64,000 nt of DNA from Paracamarosporium sp. OC-R06-R3. Its lineage: Eukaryota > Ascomycota > Dothideomycetes > Pleosporales > Didymosphaeriaceae. Numbering within the stretch: the stretch's first letter is position 1; each line of letters opens with the position of its first letter. This document shows positions 48,295 through 63,527 of this stretch, piece after piece. The notes beneath the pieces were generated by a model. The model worked only from the letters and a program-made list of their open reading frames with translations. It made no database searches and was not told where the DNA came from. The stretch lies in contig JACVRA010000257.1 in the NCBI GenBank assembly GCA_019828545.1, forward strand, positions 174,246 to 238,245, in the 5' to 3' direction. The position numbers and the translations under genes are program-made.

Positions 48295-48578
48295 TTATTC
48301 CTCATTAGAGTTGTTCCACGCCTCCTCCAGCGCATCGAGATTGATATCCAAAGGAATATTATTGAGACCAATGGTTTCACTCTTGGTCAGTCCATATTCC
48401 GTCGGATCATAGATCTTCGTCTGGTCAAAGTTATCCGGTTTCACCTAGGTAATGTCAACTATGAATAAACGGCATCAGTGACGAGCGGGCAACCAACCTG
48501 GATGATCCTCGTGATCCTGCCGCTCTTCAGACCCTTCTTGACAATAGGCCACTCGACTTTGTGAAATAATGTGATCAT
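48295..48578 (-). pseudogene. Orphan C-terminal gene fragment, two exons
   Basis: Exon-like blocks 48578-48498 and 48444-48295 join through a 53-nt GTTGGT..CCTAG intron into a 76-residue frame beginning MITLFHKVEW and ending ALEEAWNNSNEE. The composition is clearly protein-like (for example VKPDNFDQTKIYDPTEYGL). Further upstream on the same strand a GTAAGT donor follows GPHSKL near 48631, but the sequence beyond is stop-rich, so this is probably the 3' end of a larger gene whose 5' part is lost. I do not recognise the family. A short real gene is the alternative. Confidence 0.4.
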
Positions 48579-49297
48579 ACATCACCATGCCTACCTGGCT
48601 GTGCTAGATAGAACTTAGGTGATCACTTACGAGCTTGGAATGAGGACCAAGGGCAGTATGCGTTAATTAGCTCATTTTACGCGTATAAGGTGCTACTAAT
48701 GTTGTTATGAGTAGAATCTACGAGCGTCAAGAACATCTCAGCCCCTCAGGTGTCACCGAAAAGAGATGACTTGGACAAAAAGCTGAACGCGGGTTAGGTG
48801 TATACGAGCGCAGTCTAAGAAGCGGGATAGCTTGTATAAGCGTATCTAGGATCGTATAAGTATGGTTGATTGATTGTAAGTCTTGATGCTAATTCTTGAT
48901 GCTAACTAGTGTGGAGACTAAAGCTATATATGCCAAGACCATGGTCTCGTGACAGCTTGCTTGTGAGGCGGTTTCATAACTATCGAGACGCCTTCTCGAA
49001 TCCTACAGCCCTCTGGCACATGTTAAAGACCCGTGCAAGTACCGCAGGTAACATATATGGGTCGAGTAAGGCTTTACTCATAGTTGAACACACTGGAAAC
49101 CACTGACATGTGCATACACTCCATAGTAGTGGGGAAAGTGGTTTTTTAGAGGATAGTATTTGTTATCTAAAATACCCAGCATGTTTTTTGTTTAGAATAC
49201 TTCATGTAGAACACACAGCGCATGTGATCATGAAAAGCATTGGATTCGCTCTACTCAGGATATGTTGTCCAGTGTCACGAGTTCTATCTACAAGGCA
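48579..49297. other. Intergenic, 0.7 kb, degenerate
   Basis: Stop-rich, AT-rich sequence between the orphan fragment and the first UstYa-like gene. Possible decayed 5' part of the fragment, otherwise nothing seen. Confidence 0.4.
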
Positions 49298-50290
49298 TTA
49301 TTTGGATCCATGATGGGCGGCATAGCCATACTGCGAATTTGGCCCATATCTCCGCTCGAGCATGTACAATGGATTCGAGTTGCGGCAATACCTTGTGTCC
49401 GCTCCGCCATCAATAACCCGGACAACTTTACCATCATCGACCGGACCCGGCTCTAATGTCATACTCTCGAGAGTTGAATCAGCGAAGCATAGGATGGTCT
49501 ATGAGTACTTGTCAGCGCGTACATCTCCGCCGGGATGGTTACGTTTCGTACCATGCGGAGGTAGTCAAAGCAATGTGGCCAGTGAAAGTCATCTGTCTCA
49601 TCCTTTCCAATCTTCTCTCCTTCGCGCGCCTTCTGCAAGACGTCTCTCATCGCTGCGAGGCAGTGCATTTGGTGGAACCTGAACACTTATCGTCAACGCT
49701 TCAATTCTCGTTTGCACATGCCAGGCTACTTACATTGCAATAGCCTTCAGAGATGCATTCCCATTGGCATCAGCGGGCGGCAGCTTGATGTTTCCCGTAA
49801 CCATATGAAGATGCTCTTGCCATAAGTAGTCGGCCTCGTGATCGAGCGTCATATATCTCAAGTCCTTGTAGAATTTCGTAGTTACAATATTGTCTTCTTG
49901 GTAGCTTCCTAAGCCCAAAGGATACCCATCGAGCCGGTCATCGGTGTTTTGAGAGTGATGGGGCTCTTTGTGCAATTCTGAAGGCAGCGGTTTCGTGTAC
50001 TCTAGTGGCAAAGAATCGAGACCTTTAGCCGGGCATTCGCCCTCAGCTTTTGGCCTGGTATTTTCATGGATAGCAGTGACGAGTAAAACCAAAGAGATAG
50101 CTGTTATGAAGAGAGAGTAGAATTTCCAGAAAAGACTGTCGTTTGCTGGCCACTGGAGCCATCGCCGTTGACGAGAATAGAGAGCAAAGCCACGCTCATC
50201 CCCATTAAGGGGAAGTTCTTCAAGGCCATCTGAAAGTGATTCCCGAGAGGTGCTGCTATCCGTGACGTCTTTCTCTTCATCGTATGCCAT
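49298..50290 (-). CDS. UstYa-like (DUF3328) oxidase, cluster member 1
   Basis: Three exons: 50290-49734, 49678-49552 and 49498-49298, introns 55 and 53 nt; 294 residues. An N-terminal cytosolic tail (~70 residues) precedes one membrane segment (FYSLFITAISLVLLVTAI); the rest is lumenal. Both DUF3328 signatures are present: HxxHC as HQMHC (formed across intron 1, MFHQMHC) and HCFDYLR, followed by ILCFADSTLE. UstYa/UstYb proteins catalyse oxidative macrocyclisation of the core peptide in ustiloxin-type RiPPs; relatives also act in cyclochlorotine biosynthesis. Its place 3.5 kb from the repeat precursor fits such a role. The second motif lacks the usual Gln after LR (here Met). Confidence 0.88.
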
Positions 50291-51526
50291 TGTTAACTAG
50301 AGAATGATTGTGAGTGAAGAAGTCTCGGAGCAAGTAGGACATTGAGCATACTGATTTCAGCGGGTCGTACAGCTTACTTCCAAGTATTCTACTGATCGGA
50401 GCTTATTGTTCCACAATGTCTCTGTTAGGACTCGGTTCTATCAACATCCGTATTGAAGATAGTTAGCCCATGTCGATGTGCCAACGCGGGGGAGTTGATC
50501 CTGTTGATGCTAGTTGATGATAGCCGATGCAGTTGATCACAGAGAAACATGCAATAGGAAGGTGTCAATAGAGGGTCAATGGTGTAAGCCATGAGCGGGA
50601 ACTATTGGAGAAATCTCGAATCATCTTAGAGATGACGAAGAGGGATGCTCCAGACCGACTATACCACCGGCGATCAAAGCATCAGCTCGGCAAACACGAA
50701 AGTGGTTGTATAGGATTATAGACAAGGAATCGAATCCATCTACCGAGCTCTGCGCTCGATCCTTTGTATTCGTACTAGTCATGTGAATTCGGTTCGATTG
50801 TGGAGTCATCGCAGGAACAGGCGTAATGCTTGACGAGTATTGGTAACGAATCAAAGCTACAGATCGCATTGCACAAGCTGTGAAAGCTGTGTGTAGCATT
50901 CTCTTATTTTGTATTAGCTCTATGCCGGCGGATCTTTACTTAAGAGATCTCGATGTCTCTCGCACGAGTTACGCCCGGGTGGTAATCCTGAACCGGTTCA
51001 TCTCAAAGAGCCCATGTCAGCTTACAATACTACTCGCATAAGTTTCTTTAGGATTGATGCTAGGCGTTCAGCCAAGAGCATTGGACTGTGATATGCATGA
51101 GTTGATGAATAGAAGCATATTCTACGTGCCGGCTAAGATATTCACATGCTTCTCTTGTACACGTCGGCTGAAGAAAAAGGCCACAGGTTACAAATCAATA
51201 TCGAGATAGCGACTGTCCTGCATATGCACAAGATTCCCTGACACCTTTCTTCAACTCTACCCATATCGGTCCCCCAATTAAGGTTACGCTCTGGTAGAAT
51301 TCTGAATCAATAAAACGATAAACTTCCATTTATATCTAAGGCTCCATAATTATTGTCGCCACCAGAAAATCCAATCAGATTAACTGAATATATATAACAC
51401 TGGATCAAACCGAGGCTCATTTGGTAACCAAAATGGGATGACCAGCGCGAGTAGTCCAGTATGTGCTTAGTCTCACCGTCACGCTGTATCACCGTTAAGC
51501 TTTACTAGCGGCGGGAGGCGCATTGC
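50291..51526. other. Intergenic, 1.2 kb, between two UstYa-like genes
   Basis: Upstream of UstYa-like 1 and downstream of UstYa-like 2. A 92-codon minus-strand frame (50621-50899) has no motif and is not called. It holds the GTTGAT array listed separately. Confidence 0.4.
50494..50537. promoter_or_regulatory. Array of GTTGAT motifs at ~10-bp spacing
   Basis: GTTGAT starts at 50494, 50503, 50513 and 50532, with an imperfect copy (gccgat) filling the gap near 50523. The array lies about 205-245 bp upstream of the UstYa-like 1 start codon. One-helical-turn spacing is what a cooperative factor-binding array looks like, but a small decayed tandem repeat is equally possible. Confidence 0.35.
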
Positions 51527-52594
51527 TTAGTCCGGACCATCGAACACGACACCGTGCTTCCAATTGCCACGACGTTCGCCATCCTTCATACCATCGTAAC
51601 CGTGATCGCAATAGCCTGCGTACTCATAAATTAGTGTGAGCCTGGAAATCTGAATGCTCGGCTTCAACTCACCAAAATGGGCTCCCAGCGGAAAAGTGTC
51701 TCTGTCTACGCCTGGAGGTGTGTCCCGATAACAGGCTGAGTTGTCTGTTGCAAAGTCTCGCAACGCGTCCCAGTCGTTGCATTTGCGATACTGCTCGTCG
51801 CCGGCTGTATCATCACCGAAGACGTATAGAGGGGTATTGTCCGCTTTGCACATGATATACTGTCGCATCATATCGATACAGTGACCAGCATGGGGTGGCC
51901 GGAAAGAGTATTCCTCAGCACCATGAATGGCTTCCCAGAAGACTTTCCGGATAACAGTCTTAGAATGGAGTCAGACACGCAACTGTTTCCAGGATCTCGG
52001 TGAATAGACTTACGACGCAATGGACCAAGTGATATGCTTCCAGCAGATATACATTCTTGCTCGGATCCGTCGGATATGGCATCGTGTCCGGCCAATTCTG
52101 GCTCTTTGCCCACTCGCGGTCCATGGCAATGAAGCCATGAGCTGGATTGATGTCGTCCCAGAGAGCATCAGTTTCGGTGAAATTCTTGTCTGAGTATTCA
52201 GTCCACCAGTTGAAGCGCTTCCATTTTGTTGGCATCGATTGGACACGGGCTAGGGCAAGGCTTTAATACTTGTGTCGCAATTAGGAAGGGGACGCTCACC
52301 AGCTGATTTTGGAGTATATTTTGGTTCTATAGCGTCCATCTGCACCATCAGATACTTGGTTGCAACGAGACCAGTAATGGTAAGAATGTTTGATAATACG
52401 AGCAGGAGGACGACACAGGAAGGAAAGAGTCTTGACCATTTCTTCCTCGCTGGACGAGCGAAAATTTGGTCCTCATAGTCCCTCTCGCTGTCTTTCTCGC
52501 TAGGGGATGAGGTTCCATCGTGAAGGGGAGCATATACTGTCTTGTCTCGCTCCATGCTTGGAAACTTGTTAGACTTAAGAGTAAAACCAAACAT
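51527..52594 (-). CDS. UstYa-like (DUF3328) oxidase, cluster member 2
   Basis: Four exons: 52594-52300, 52249-52014, 51958-51673 and 51615-51527, introns 50, 55 and 57 nt, all GT..AG in matching phase; 301 residues. An alternative ATG at 52555 (MERDKTVYAP) would give 288. The cytosolic tail is followed by one membrane span (LFPSCVVLLLVLSNILTITGLV). Lumenal signatures are HLVHC (HxxHC) near the end of exon 2 and HCIDMMRQ in exon 3, followed by YIMCKAD..P and a late CNDWDALRDFA block typical of the family. Predicted to oxidise or cyclise a secreted peptide in the secretory pathway. It is divergent from the repeat precursor across 1.25 kb that carries the hairpin repeats. Confidence 0.9.
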
Positions 52595-53841
52595 AGTTTC
52601 AGGGCAGTAACTCTGACAGCAGAGTATGCAGGGAATGTAAAAAGAAGAGGTGAGATGGCAGCGATAGTAATCGAAAGTAGCGCTACAAAGAGTTGCTGGT
52701 AGTTCTACCGCACTGTCCAAGTGTCGGCACAGCTTACTTACTAAGAGCGGGGAGCTGCCCGCGTCTGGGCCCACCCTGCTAGGTAGAGTACCCAATTTTA
52801 ATGACCGGGGCTATTGCGAACACAATATCACATCAGAAATGAGCTAAGAGGGTAGGTCAAGCACGCGATCTTACTGTTGTTAGCCTTGGAGCATATACGC
52901 CCCGTTGAAGGATAAGCCACGGGGCGTAAATTAGTAGATGAACATACATATTTCTGTTTATACGCCCCGTCGAAGGAAGCTGCGGGGCGTAAACTAGTCG
53001 ATGGACATACGTATTCCTGTTTCTACAACCCGTCGAAGGATAAGTCACGGGGCGTAAACTGGGATGAACATACGTATTCCTGTTTCGAAAGAAAGAAATG
53101 CATCAATGTAACATCGGCTTGATTGATTCTCGGCCTTTCAGCTTTGTCAAACCATTTTACTGGCTTGCCAACTCACTGCTGTCCATCATTCCTTTCACGT
53201 ATAGGATCGATATCCTAGCGTACGTACTTCGATTGATTGAATTTTGGTGAGATCGGCGGCTAATGGAAGTCTCATATAGGACGAATTTGCATGGCGTATG
53301 TAATCCTATCACACTTTCTCGGTGACCTGGTAGTGGTCCATCATCAGTACGCGATCTCTCCTCATTCCGAGAGCAATATAGCCGTCTAGGCACTCAAAAC
53401 AAGTGAGATTGAGCTAGGATCTACGTGGATAGTCACCGGTCACGGCGAGCAATGTCTCAATACCATGCGTCTAGACTAGCGCTGTGAGCTAACACTGGGT
53501 TGCGTTGCATATGGTGTAATAGTATGCATTGACAAGCGCCAAAAAGTGGAGCAAAAAGAGTGGAAAAACAGAAACTGTCACATCTGGAGTAAGCCATGTG
53601 ATTCATAGCCCTGGTGACCCGTCGATGCAAGCTGAGGGGGAATAATTGGTCACTAACGATTTCGCTCGGAAACGAGAAGACCCTATTCCGGAGAAGTTGG
53701 TGGCCGTGTTACAGTGTCAATATATGAAGCTTGCTCTTCAGCATCTCTAGTTGAAGAACAGCAGGCAACGTTTTCACTTTGGATCACAAACCGGCTTCGT
53801 CAAAACCCTGCTCATACAATTCCTCTCAGCGCTCAATCATC
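52595..53841. promoter_or_regulatory. Divergent control region between UstYa-like 2 and the repeat precursor
   Basis: 1.25 kb with no supported gene. The region contains the three-unit hairpin repeat at 52896-53086. The last 150 bp before 53842 lead into the precursor start through a pyrimidine-containing leader (cctctcagcgctcaatcatc). Confidence 0.55.
52896..53086. repeat. Three ~64-bp tandem units, each with a GC-rich inverted repeat
   Basis: Units start at 52896, 52961 and 53024. In the first, tacgccccgt (52896-52905) and acggggcgta (52919-52928) are a perfect 10-bp inverted repeat around a 13-base loop. The second has one arm mismatch and the third two. Each arm pair is followed by a shared tail (aaaYtagt.gatg.acatac.tattYctgttt). 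The GC-rich palindromes stand out in AT-rich surroundings. They lie about 300 bp upstream of UstYa-like 2 and 0.75 kb upstream of the precursor. Confidence 0.85.
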
Positions 53842-54353
53842 ATGAAATTCTCTATCGCATTCATCACGCTTGTAGCCGGCCTTGTTGCTGCCGCTCCAGT
53901 TGGTAAGATTCTTCTCATCTAAACCTTGTTGTGAGACGATATTGACGACTCGCAGAGAAGCGTGATGTTGCCTACAACAACCTGGCTGAAAACCCAAGCC
54001 AGATCGAGTCTGCTGATAAGGTAGACTTCACGGCTGCGCGTGGTGGATACAAGAAGCGTGACGTTGCCTACAACAACTTGGCTGAAAACCCAAGCCAGAT
54101 CGAATCTGCTGAGGAAGTAGACTTCACGGCTGCGCGTGGTGGATATAAGGAGCGGGATGTTGCATACAACAATTTGGCTGAGAACCCGAGCCAGATCGAG
54201 TCCGCTGAGGAGGTTGATTTTACTGCTGCCCGTGGTGGATACAAACAGCGTGACGTTGCCTACAACAACCTGGCCGAAAACCCAAGCCAGATCGAGTCTG
54301 CTGAGGAGGTAGACTTCACGGCTGCCCGCGGCGGTTACAAGGAACGCGTCTAA
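53842..54353 (+). CDS. Secreted repeat precursor, candidate RiPP (dikaritin-type) or Kex2-processed repeat protein
   Basis: Two exons, 53842-53902 and 53956-54353, with a 53-nt intron (GTAAGA..GCAG); 152 residues. A signal peptide (MKFSIAFITLVAGLVAAAP) is followed by V-EKR, a Kex2 site, then four 32-residue repeats and a final Val. Each repeat runs DVAYNNLAENPSQIES.., then VDFTAARGGYK, then x-R. The residue before the last Arg is Lys in unit 1 but Glu, Gln and Glu in units 2-4. Repeated cores with Kex2 sites behind a signal peptide are the hallmark of ustiloxin/asperipin/victorin/epichloecyclin precursors, and UstYa-like genes flank it on both sides. The Tyr in AYNNL or in RGGY would be candidate crosslink sites. 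It is not an alpha-pheromone (no CxxPGQP-type core). Confidence 0.85.
53964..54347 (+). repeat. Four in-frame 96-bp coding repeats
   Basis: Units: 53964-54059, 54060-54155, 54156-54251 and 54252-54347, with no indel between them. Most differences are synonymous third-position changes. Amino-acid changes are limited to two positions in the middle (DK in unit 1, EE in the rest) and the residue before the terminal Arg. Confidence 0.95.
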
Positions 54354-55030
54354 GCGTTGCTGGCTATTTCGCTAGTAGTGGCGGTATGTCGGGGGCCATT
54401 GGCAAGTTGGGTTTGGTGCGGTGTAGGCACAACACTCCTTTGATGATCTTGAATGTTCTAAGGTGAAATGGACTTAGGTAGCTGCTGCCGATCGATGTAG
54501 TTGTGGGGAAAGTGCTTATTGGCTTGCAAGCGGCGAACAACTCATTGCAACAAAAACAATTCTTACCCTGATCCCCATGTCTTGACTGGTCTAAATCATG
54601 GAAATTCTTGTGACGATCGTGTAGTTAACCACGAGCTAAGACGCATACCCTGAGTTATGTTCTTTCTACAGCAGAGAATTCAAGTCTAACAAAGTGATAG
54701 ACGTCAATAGTATGGTAACACCCTCTGGCTAGTTGTAAATCTACGTACTATCTTAAGAGAGGTTAGCGGATGCGTCGTACAACGAGTGGGGTAAATCACT
54801 GGGTTTGATTGCCATAAATCCTTCCCGCACGATAGAAACTGGACCTGCCATCTTGAGCGACTACAATAATAGTTGAAGTATTACGCAACTCATTCAAGGA
54901 TATCACGGGATTTGGTTCTTGGGTGACGAAAGCTCACTCATGCTGACACTCTTACGCGGGCTTACGCTCAGTTTCCCACGACTTACTTTCACATTTATCT
55001 TTACCTCTCGTTTGAAGGCCATCTAAAAAC
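54354..55030. other. Intergenic, 0.7 kb
   Basis: The 3' flank of the precursor and the promoter of UstYa-like 3, both on the plus strand. Nothing else supported. Confidence 0.4.
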
Positions 55031-55831
55031 ATGGTGACGACCTTAACCTACCAGCGCTTACCACAAGAGCAAGACGCTGACGTAGAAGAGCGCAATATTA
55101 TACCAGAGTACTCTGATCTTGGCGGTGATAGACCACGGCGGTCGAGGCTCACGACGATCCGCGATGTTCTCATCATCAGTCTCGCATTCTGGGGTACTCT
55201 TGATCTTGGTCTTAGGATGATCAACACTTTCACATCCATTCGCCGCGTCACGTCCATCACCATCAACTCAAGTACGGAGCAGCCGAAGTGTTCTTGCGGC
55301 TCCACCCCGGCAGAAGCTATCGCTAACAACTGCACTTTCGATCCTTTCGCCGCAGCCTGGGTACCGGACTCGTGTCTCGACACAGAACTTCTTGATCTAT
55401 TTCACTCTCTCGAAAAACTCCAACGTAACTCGACAAGTCCCAGGGATGACTCGGGGCATCCCCATTCGTCATCTGCACCACTAAATGCCTCATCCATATC
55501 CACTTCACCCTTCTATGCCTTCTCCGAAGGTCTTGAACAGCTTTCTGTTGAGGAAGTATCCCAGTTGGCGATGCCCCCGGCAACCGAGCGAAATGGTGGC
55601 ATGGCCTCGTGGGTTTGGACAACAATGGATTGGCACAACACGCATTGTTTGTATGTGTTGTTGAAAATCGCAAGAGCGAGGGAGACAAGGTTGGAGATAG
55701 AACCAAGGTACACAAACTTGGGCCACACGCAGCATTGTACGGTCAAATTATTAAATTGGATTCGAGAAGAAAGTGATGTTGGAGCGTTGAAGGCATTGAA
55801 CGGAATTAGCTCAGTAGATGTCTATCCATAG
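55031..55831 (+). CDS. Divergent UstYa-like (DUF3328-related) membrane protein, cluster member 3
   Basis: Single exon, 266 residues. An acidic cytosolic tail (~45 residues) is followed by one membrane segment (VLIISLAFWGTLDLGLRM). The lumenal part has the CxCGxTPAEAIANNCTFDPFAAAWVP block, then SCLDTELLDLF, found in a distinct fungal branch. The C-terminal half carries WTTMDWHNTHCLYVLLK and LGHTQHCTVKLL, two HxxHC motifs. This branch is commonly met in fungal genomes near UstYa genes; its own activity is unknown to me. It lies 677 bp downstream of the precursor on the same strand, so it is likely a third oxidase-type enzyme of the same pathway. Confidence 0.8.
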   Translation: MVTTLTYQRLPQEQDADVEERNIIPEYSDLGGDRPRRSRLTTIRDVLIISLAFWGTLDLGLRMINTFTSIRRVTSITINSSTEQPKCSCGSTPAEAIANNCTFDPFAAAWVPDSCLDTELLDLFHSLEKLQRNSTSPRDDSGHPHSSSAPLNASSISTSPFYAFSEGLEQLSVEEVSQLAMPPATERNGGMASWVWTTMDWHNTHCLYVLLKIARARETRLEIEPRYTNLGHTQHCTVKLLNWIREESDVGALKALNGISSVDVYP

Positions 55832-61437: not shown

Positions 61438-61566
61438 CGTTCCTCCATTAGCTTTTATGGCGGGCGCATTGTGGTATGTCCGCACTGTCAGTTGTTCGGC
61501 GAGGCGCGAAATTGAGGAGGGGTTGATGTATGGGACAGGGTTGCAGCGCACAGGCGGCCCCCAATA

Positions 61567-61590
61567 CAGTGTCTGTGCGCGTGCCGCCCA
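61567..61590. repeat. Left terminal inverted repeat of the pogo-like element
   Basis: 24 bp, identical to the reverse complement of the right end at 63649-63672. Confidence 0.95.
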
Positions 61591-61655
61591 TGTTCGCGTG
61601 CCGCCCACCCCAACAGTGCAACACCATACTTTCGACGCGTGATTCAACCACAACT

Positions 61656-63527
61656 ATGCCTAGAATCAATGATGCGCTGCAGCGGATCGATAATTTAAAG
61701 CCTAGCGAAAAGATTTCCTATAGTAAAATTACAAAAGATGCGCGTTGTGATCGCTCAACCTTATCGCGCCGTCACCGAGGTGTTCAAGTGGATAACACTA
61801 CTAAGAATATTAGGCAGCGTAAAGTAACACCCCAACAGGAGGACGACCTTGTTCAGTACATTATAGGGCTTACAGAGCGCCACTTTCCTCCCACAAGAGA
61901 GATGATTAAGAATTTCGTACGTGGAATGGCCCATATTGAGGTCTCTGAGACCTGGGTTACGCACTTCCTCTAGCGACACCGCGATGTACTTTCGAACCAA
62001 TGGACCTCCCCTATGGCTGCCAATCGTCACGCTGCTGACTCCTGGGGCAAGTAAAAGGCGTACTTCGACCTTCTAACGCACCGGATAAATAAGTACTCTA
62101 TCGAGCCTCGGCACACATACAATATGGATGAGAAGGGCTTCATGGCCGGTATCATTGGCAAACAGAAGAGGGTGTTTAGTAAGGCTTCGTTTGAGCGTAA
62201 ACATGCTCGGCAGAGCTCTCATGATGGCAGCCGTGAATGGATTACGCTTGTAGCGTGTGTGTGTGGCGATGGTACAACTCTTCCTCCAAGCCTCATCTTC
62301 CAGGCTGACTCCGCGAACGTACAATCGAACTGGGTGAGCGATATTGACAAGAAGAAGCACTCTATCTATACAACTGTCTCCCCCTCCAGCTAGTCCAACG
62401 ATGACGCAGGCTTAGGCTGGGTTGAGCAGGTGTTCAACCCACTTACAAAGCATAAAGCGCGAAGAAAGTGGCGGCTCTTGATTATGGATGGCCACAGCAG
62501 CTATATAACAATGGATTTCTTATCCCATTGTGCTGAGGAGCGCATACTAGTACTTATCTATCCTCCACACAGTACCCATACTCTCCAGCTACTTGATGTA
62601 GTATGCTTCTCGCTATTAGCAACTAACTACTCTACGGTCCTTATGAATTACCTTTACAGCAGCTAGGGCTTAACGCCTATTGAGAAAGGTGACTTCTTTA
62701 AGATCTTCTGGCAAGCATGGACGCAAACGTTCACTGAAAAGCTGGTCCTTCGCTCTTTTGAGGCAGTGGGGATCGCTCCGCTCAACCCTGAGGTTATACT
62801 GAATTGTTTCACCCCTAGCCAAGCTGAAGCAGCCGCAGCACAGGCCTTTAATAAAGCTGGCGATTGGCGACATAATGATAGGGCTTGGCGGCAATTGGTA
62901 AAGAACCCAGCTGCAGATGAGGCAAAAGAGCTGAGGCAAACCCTTCACCAGCTCACGAACTAAAATGAGCTGTTAAAGATGGAAAGAAACGGCTTACAAG
63001 AAGCTCTCTGTCACGCAAGAAGTAAGCCTAGAAAAAGCAAGCCTCTGCCGCTTATTCAGCGCAAAGAGACTTGTTCAAAGACGCAATGGTACTCACCCTG
63101 AGGTGTTAACGAGGCTCAACACCTCTAGAACATATTTGAGCAAGAGGAGAAGGATAATGAGCTCTGTAAACACACTGCGCGAGAGATTCGTGAGTCCAAC
63201 AGGAAGCTGAAGCAGAAGCTTGATGCTGAGAAGAAAGTCGCTGCTGCAACAAGAAGAAGGGAAGCTGCTGAGCGAGCCCAGTTGAAGCGTGAGGAAGCAG
63301 CTCAACGTAAAGCTGAACGAGAGCGTCAAAAGCAAGAGCGCGACGCTGCGAAAGCTATACAACTGTCCTAAAAAGGCAGGCGGAAGGTTTCACAGTCTAC
63401 AGCACCTAGAAAGAAGCAGAATCGTGGTGTAGTGGCTGCGCGGCGTAGTGTTGTTACTGCAGCATCTCTTCTAGCACCTCGCACCTACACTACACGCAGC
63501 GGCCGAACTGCCACTCTATACAATTAA
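61656..63527 (+). pseudogene. Pogo-type transposase, inactivated by in-frame stops
   Basis: One continuous frame of 624 codons from ATG 61656 (MPRINDALQRID) to TAA 63525-63527, interrupted by eight stops: TAG 61971, TAA 62052, TAG 62391, TAG 62664, TAA 62961, TGA 63099, TAG 63126, TAA 63369. There is no indel. Domains: N-terminal Psq/CENP-B helix-turn-helix (YSKITKDARCDRSTLSRRHRG), a second HTH (TREMIKNFV), and the DDE_1 core with the first Asp in YNMDEKGF, the second in LLIMDGHSSY and the third in HTLQLLDV. A Lys/Glu-rich coiled tail follows, then the usual C-terminus (TTRSGRTATLYN). All stops fit single C-to-T (or G-to-A) transitions, the RIP pattern. Confidence 0.92.

Follow-up and report, generated by a model that had tools for sequence, protein, structure and literature searches.

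The closest described counterparts of the locus reported here are gene clusters in which a precursor protein lies beside proteins of the UstYa family (DUF3328, PF11807), the fungal systems for ribosomally synthesized and post-translationally modified peptides (RiPPs) known as dikaritins. In the ustiloxin B cluster of Aspergillus flavus (UstA, UstYa, UstYb, UstQ), as described in the available parts of the source, a multi-core secreted precursor is accompanied by two DUF3328 proteins, and ED and KR motifs flank each core (PMC6514808). The same parts describe the asperipin-2a cluster (AprA, AprY, AprT, AprR) as a compact set of four genes that includes one DUF3328 protein, a transporter, and a reductase, lists no tyrosinase, and encodes the core FYYTGY; for the epichloecyclins, the precursor GigA has a signal sequence and four repeats with a KR recognition site within them, and a Tyr-based ring is reported (PMC6514808). 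More broadly, the accessible sections of a survey (Umemura 2020) count 7878 KEX2-processed repeat proteins (KEPs), 1758 of which have DUF3328 genes nearby (PMC7329392). Two definitions of dikaritins are quoted in the available portion of PMC12048977: a five-gene definition (Ding et al.) that lists precursor, tyrosinase, methyltransferase, several DUF3328 proteins, and transporter or peptidase, and a later one in which the DUF3328 protein is the class-defining enzyme. Here, we describe a four-gene locus at positions 49298–55831 of a 64,000-nucleotide window (the whole stretch of DNA analysed) from the fungus Paracamarosporium sp. OC-R06-R3, which probably makes a UstYa-type RiPP, a crosslinked peptide cut from a secreted repeat protein.

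Gene models rebuilt from the raw sequence with their intron borders place UstY-A, UstY-B, a precursor gene, and UstY-C in this interval (Table 1), in agreement with the initial annotation, which had proposed one precursor and three membrane-type proteins. UstY-A and UstY-B, on the minus strand at the left, diverge from the precursor and UstY-C on the plus strand at the right; since the left pair points away from the right pair, UstY-B and the precursor have a 1.3-kb divergent intergenic region in common. As in the ustiloxin B cluster, a multi-unit precursor stands with two DUF3328 proteins, and the E-E-V-D and K-x-R that surround its FTAARGGY stretch recall the ED and KR motifs around the UstA cores; unlike that cluster, the locus has a putative core that does not resemble YAIG, unit ends that for the most part lack KR, a divergent third HxxHC protein, and no further tailoring gene in view. 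Asperipin-2a is likewise compact, and its Phe/Tyr core is the nearest in flavour to FTAARGGY, whereas its transporter and reductase have no visible counterpart here. GigA also has four repeats, behind a signal sequence where our precursor has a signal-like start, but differs in its KR sites. KEPs with DUF3328 neighbours share the signal peptide (signal-like in our precursor), the tandem repeats, and the proximity of UstYa genes (PMC7329392, in the sections available). None of the 39 tyrosinase matches in the genome lies on contig C111, and Pfam showed no methyltransferase, transporter, or peptidase among the cluster proteins or in ten further open frames from 47.9 to 57.3 kb, a range in which small-exon genes could escape; those ten frames, chosen for length, had no Pfam match of any kind at E ≤ 0.01, and no regulator was seen inside the cluster. 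The initial annotation had likewise seen no tyrosinase, methyltransferase, transporter, or regulator inside the cluster. Of the five-gene definition, the locus thus offers the precursor and DUF3328 components; under the later definition it belongs with the dikaritins through its PF11807 proteins, which would act on the precursor. What is unusual in the cluster is its unit separators and its third HxxHC protein; otherwise it is a known kind of system.

The precursor begins with a hydrophobic segment whose Ala-rich end precedes PVEKR (read from the sequence), and continues past A-P-V-E-K-R into four units of 32 residues each, with the pattern DVAYNNLAENPSQIESAEEVDFTAARGGYK-x-R (in unit 1, DK replaces EE), a final V, and the stop codon; every unit contains two Tyr and one Phe. 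Tandem Repeats Finder reports a period of 96 bp, 4.0 copies, and a score of 576, and the array is not a chance product. The repeats have diverged mainly at silent sites. Of the 96 bases, 19 are changed between repeats 3 and 4, but only one residue is, where about 12 residue changes would be expected without constraint, and none of 20,000 simulations gave so low a count; between repeats 2 and 4 there are 11 base differences and no residue difference, against an expectation of about 7. Residue changes fall below expectation in all six repeat pairs, even in the weakest (1 vs. 2, with nine base and three residue differences, P 0.02). Over codons 1–30, repeats 2–4 show 9–16 base differences per pair and zero residue differences, their sole residue difference being the Q of repeat 3, directly before Arg. 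The repeats are real and under coding constraint. The predicted precursor with four 32-residue repeats is borne out in a protein of 152 residues; of its claimed secretion, the signal-like start is visible and export would follow from it. A search of the 43-Mb genome turned up no paralog. Matches to 12 Pfam families (the best, DUF2015, at 24.6 bits with a cut-off of 27) all fell below their cut-offs and were taken as noise. When five stretches of the repeat were searched in the open literature, only the shortest, "aarggy," matched, in 14 papers whose titles suggest chance matches.

UstY-A and UstY-B are members of PF11807 by the Pfam curated cut-off of 25 bits, with 62.5 and 93 bits, respectively. 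Two HxxHC motifs occur in each of the three membrane-type proteins (at residues 188 and 218 in UstY-A, 159 and 187 in UstY-B, and 202 and 232 in UstY-C), with HxxHC motifs already noted in the initial annotation, and each protein has its strongest hydrophobic window close to the N-terminus. The UstY-A gene model agrees at its end with an annotated protein of Pleomassaria siparia (P0005) and in its first exon with the proteins P0003 and P0004. No solved structure matched UstY-B or the profile of the family to which UstY-C belongs.

This family, here called C-type, comprises seven genes at six loci of the same genome, one of them placed weakly, in searches from UstY-C and two relatives. The links are individually weak: the best from UstY-C reaches E 1.4e-6 (at C148), one relative-based search did not reach the window, and the C199 gene, with E 0.007 in the UstY-C search only, was placed by eye through its SCSCG stretch and two HxxHC-like motifs. 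Five aligned members, from which two incompletely modelled ones were left out (C148:30.3 kb, second motif not found; C199, second motif HIAHC), show 24–26% identity to UstY-C and 22 invariant columns, and share, UstY-C included, a pattern of Cys-Gly...Cys-x-Phe...Trp...Cys-x-Asp followed by HxxHC and HTxHC. At E ≤ 1, PF11807 touches two of these five, the best at 0.0042. Because a profile comparison with four UstYa sequences aligns the motif region (59 columns around both motifs, probability 88.8, E 2.5e-6), the C-type proteins appear to be remote relatives of UstYa whose N-terminal stretch is peculiar to them. The 75 PF11807 matches in the genome yielded 54 hand-picked, gene-like places and 47 loci, whose 5-kb surroundings cover 1.1% of the genome; five of the six C-type loci lie within 5 kb of a UstYa match (chance about 1e-9, a rough estimate), as do four of five when the window is set aside (about 8e-8, equally rough). 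A repeat precursor is present at five of the six. At the C199 locus (C199:79500–87683), a precursor of DPPVNAITIPSAEKR units stands beside the C-type gene on a contig that has no PF11807 match and ends 2.1 kb past the repeats. We recognised no description of the family in the available portions of the open-licence literature on UstYa, DUF3328, dikaritins, and KEPs, although one may well exist there or elsewhere. The contig C148 (L019, L020) carries two C-type genes and UstYa matches with no visible repeat precursor; a short secreted-looking frame there (L019:5849–6058, minus strand) is perhaps a single-core precursor. At another C-type locus, large frames (L021:6519–8325) adjoin the precursor, the UstYa gene, and the C-type gene; they appear by eye to be of arylsulfotransferase type, and a frame resembling the major facilitator superfamily lies on the opposite side. 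A VD..F motif common to precursors at C-type loci was seen by eye only and is not claimed.

Taken as a whole, the locus likely directs the synthesis of a ribosomally made, UstYa-type (dikaritin-like) peptide that is crosslinked by oxidation, with FTAARGGY(K) as its putative core. In the proposed pathway, a signal peptide would direct the precursor into the endoplasmic reticulum; UstY-A and UstY-B, anchored in the membrane so that their double HxxHC centres face the lumen, would oxidise the aromatic core, and UstY-C may serve as a third, divergent maturation partner. A Kex2-type protease would cut after the Arg of K-x-R, not at dibasic sites alone, and trimming would then release a small peptide with a Phe/Tyr-based ring.

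Protein searches extended parts of this system to other fungi. UstY-A has 18 relatives at E ≤ 0.001 among 210 candidates, with 42–75% identity; those named are from Pleomassaria siparia (74%), Lindgomyces ingoldianus, Clohesyomyces aquaticus, Rasamsonia emersonii, Pyrenochaeta sp., Zopfia rhizophila, Polyplosphaeria fusca, Lophium mytilinum, and Cadophora sp., several of which are Pleosporales, the order to which the initial annotation looked for relatives. For the precursor, scoring of the best 7994 candidates brought out two related proteins, the three-unit P0001 and the two-unit P0002. Scans of genome and viral contig collections with the precursor returned 33 and 2 pattern matches, none confirmed, intron-split genes being easily missed by them.

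Several observations weigh against this interpretation. Among the same 7994 candidates, no precursor relative came from the named species that have a UstY-A relative; either the small precursor gene is unannotated there or UstY-A serves other substrates in those fungi. This pattern is the opposite of the one that the initial annotation counted against its reading, a precursor kept without oxidases. UstY-C scores 17.4 bits against PF11807 (E 0.0042), below the cut-off, and in a protein search with it none of 691 scored candidates reached E ≤ 1e-3. The structures predicted for UstY-C by itself and for P0005 together with 15 relatives were of poor quality (mean pLDDT, the predicted local distance difference test, 37.6 and 48.5). 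C-type genes did not prove better markers of precursors than UstYa genes (five of six vs. 8 of 14 loci). High conservation spans most of the repeat unit, not just a short core. Dibasic sites are confined to the leader KR and the first unit end, KKR, the later unit ends being KER, KQR, and KER; in P0001 and P0002, RK follows each KPR, and the last units end in KRE rather than K-x-R. The dikaritin-type assignment of the initial annotation is well supported by the precursor, the two PF11807 proteins, and a divergent relative of these; it loses the third protein as a PF11807 member, leaving two of the three claimed UstYa-type proteins above the family cut-off, and the precursor falls outside the strict KEP rule.

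A comparison of nine units (four in the window, three in P0001, and two in P0002) shows VDFTAARGGYK as the longest block without variation, with 11 of 11 positions unchanged; ahead of it, 10 of 19 positions are invariant, and the last two positions of the unit vary. In the window precursor, FTAARGGY has acidic E-E-V-D before it and K-x-R after it, and FTAARGGY(K) is most likely the core, favoured over VAYNNL on this comparative reading. The alternative is that the core is the N-terminal part of the unit (VAYNNL, or VAYDRL in relatives), or that each unit holds two cores, with VDFTAARGGYK acting as a recognition motif for the oxidases; conservation can mark a recognition motif, VAY stands directly behind the cut site, contains a tyrosine, and is invariant in nine of nine units, and the residues that follow it differ between species (NN, DR, DS), as is often so in cores. 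This arrangement is unlikely: in four other precursors of the genome (L021, L022, L023, and L035), an acidic stretch is followed mostly by F and then by Y or W near K or R (for example, VDEGFSKIIYKR and VDFDAVGDEYKR), a resemblance noticed post hoc and by eye that speaks for the FTAARGGY side of the unit.

Quite improbable, to our mind, is that the repeat protein yields an unmodified secreted peptide, pheromone- or signal-like, while the adjoining UstY genes act on some other substrate. Most surveyed repeat precursors (6120 of 7878) lack a neighbouring DUF3328 gene, and linear peptides are the products of several known precursors (PMC7329392, PMC9769878, in the parts available); the fungi with a UstY-A relative and no detected precursor relative would fit as well. 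Against it, three double-HxxHC genes adjoin this precursor, every one of its units offers two Tyr and one Phe, and the accessible sections of the survey find DUF3328 genes concentrated beside repeat precursors (PMC7329392).

The unit ends are one of the features in which the cluster departs from described systems. Under the KEP rule of Umemura 2020, as given in the sections available, a precursor has at least three tandem repeats of at least 8 aa, each between KR, KK, RK, or RR (PMC7329392); the window precursor has one 29-residue stretch so bounded, and its last 98 residues contain no dibasic site, while P0001 would satisfy the rule via RK. The Kex2 site of the initial annotation is accordingly found in the leader KR and the KKR of the first unit, and not at the remaining unit ends. 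In P0001 and P0002, all three unit junctions read KPRK and the first units follow QRK, so that most unit ends keep K and R around a middle residue that is K, E, or Q here and P in the relatives. We infer that K-x-R is the working cleavage site of the precursor, because K and R are kept, because cuts after a single Arg or at non-dibasic sites have been reported (Coprinopsis repeat proteins expressed in Pichia gave peptides apparently cut after a single Arg, PMC9769878, and Kex2 sites with other residues ahead of Arg are known, PMC2515848, both from the available parts of the sources), and because the genome has one P_proprotein (Kex2-type) match. That the cluster is instead decaying, the dibasic sites having been lost once unit release was no longer needed and the gene lingering as an unprocessed repeat protein, is highly improbable: the single dibasic unit end besides the leader KR and the uniform KPR of the three P0001 and P0002 junctions would suit it, but the reading frames are open, residues 1–30 of units 2–4 do not change although silent sites do, four of four units keep the K and R of K-x-R, cuts after single Arg are reported as likely for such proteins (PMC9769878, in part), and another locus of this genome (L033) also has QPR and NAR junctions beside KR.

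Returning to the crosslinked-peptide interpretation, it is possible, though doubtful, that such loci form a sub-class of RiPP loci that would combine a C-type maturation protein, with (perhaps at C199 without) a PF11807 oxidase, and a K-x-R-cut precursor with a free middle residue, two traits not required by the surveys consulted. If this is true, the C-type family would offer another means of locating RiPP clusters, the rule for recognising repeat precursors would be broadened by K-x-R cutting, and these loci would escape searches that require PF11807 and dibasic sites. The window cluster, with three HxxHC proteins beside one precursor, would in turn be a small, testable system for the role of extra HxxHC proteins in fungal RiPPs.

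Repeat precursors are common at the UstYa loci of this genome. We read 18 of the 46 other UstYa loci, chosen for nearby C-type genes, several matches, or good scores, together with C199, using a six-frame tandem-repeat scan of open frames followed by reading by eye. Precursors were seen at 11 of the 18, plus C199 (12 of 19; Table 1), and none at L019, L020 (both C148), L025, L027, L028, L030, L037, and L038. The precursors of L029 and L033 were found by a looser rule, L029, with irregular spacing, being the weakest case. Among short stretches of four further UstYa loci, one (L004) had a precursor, so that the UstYa and C-type loci of the genome account for at least 13 repeat precursors besides that of the window. 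As a rough control, the strict rule picked up a single weak frame in the remainder of the window and the looser one five frames at two places; both of these places are tandem DNA (the 63-bp array described below, and 24.8–25.4 kb), so the looser rule is not specific by itself. The repeat units are highly diverse (IIYKR, AFPTWIKR, QWYDLTYIDKR, APWYRATNILP, NYTGPGNGKR, and QYHGKNVVK, for example), and, as judged from their sequences, one fungus harbours a large RiPP-like repertoire. At L033 (C260:242500–252400), precursor junctions of KR are mixed with QPR and NAR, the latter having no basic residue ahead of Arg. L035 (C23:88500–98400), with a precursor of VDFDAVGDEYKR units, two UstYa matches, and tyrosinase matches at C23:96040–96666, is the nearest to a classical ustiloxin-type layout among the loci read. 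Given the 1758 of 7878 surveyed KEPs and the 13 or more additional precursors here, a KEP with DUF3328 neighbours is an ordinary arrangement, and a new product is therefore the normal expectation. The product of the window cluster would be new; the novelty claimed for it in the initial annotation is overstated in that the same holds for most such clusters.

Within the intergenic region between UstY-B and the precursor lies a 63-bp tandem array (Table 1). Its CGCCCCG..CGGGGCG arms are perfect in two of the three copies, and at the sensitivity used the element had no other match in the 43-Mb genome. At a guess, it could be a shared regulatory array, a regulator binding site through which the divergent genes might be co-regulated.

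Table 1. Coordinates of the cluster, its flanks, and related loci (window positions unless a contig or locus is named)
Feature	Position	Strand	Details
UstY-A	49298–50290	−	294 aa, 3 exons, PF11807 membrane-type; introns 49733–49679, 49551–49499
UstY-B	51527–52555	−	288 aa, 4 exons, PF11807 membrane-type; introns 52299–52250, 52013–51959, 51672–51616
Three tandem 63-bp copies	52894–53085	no strand	score 254, 3.0 copies (Tandem Repeats Finder); in 1.3-kb UstY-B/precursor intergenic region
Precursor gene	53842–54353	+	152 aa; one intron 53903–53955; signal-like start, leader KR, four 32-aa units
Repeat unit 1	53964–54059	+	ends KKR; invariant block VDFTAARGGYK 54021–54053
Repeat unit 2	54060–54155	+	ends KER; invariant block VDFTAARGGYK 54117–54149
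Repeat unit 3	54156–54251	+	ends KQR; invariant block VDFTAARGGYK 54213–54245
Repeat unit 4	54252–54347	+	ends KER, then V and stop; invariant block VDFTAARGGYK 54309–54341
UstY-C	55031–55831	+	266 aa, single exon; divergent double-HxxHC membrane-type, Cys-rich stretch ahead of motifs; reference C-type member
CAP59-type mannosyltransferase gene	45.9–47.5 kb		left flank of cluster
Ankyrin-repeat gene	57.6–59.9 kb		right flank of cluster
Protein kinase-like frame			right flank of cluster
Tc5-type transposase DNA-binding domain fragment	61527–61970	+	adjoins kinase-like frame, right flank
C-type loci	window; C142; C260 near 218 kb; C241 near 384 kb; C148; C199 near 83.6 kb		two genes at C148
Precursor-bearing loci	L021, L022, L023, L024 (C199), L026, L029, L031, L032, L033, L034, L035, L036		

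Beyond the left end of the cluster, a short, two-exon-like coding remnant (KPDNFDQTKIYDPTEYG...) lies at about 48310–48580 of the window on the minus strand and has no Pfam match. The right flank carries transposon remains in the form of the Tc5-type fragment.

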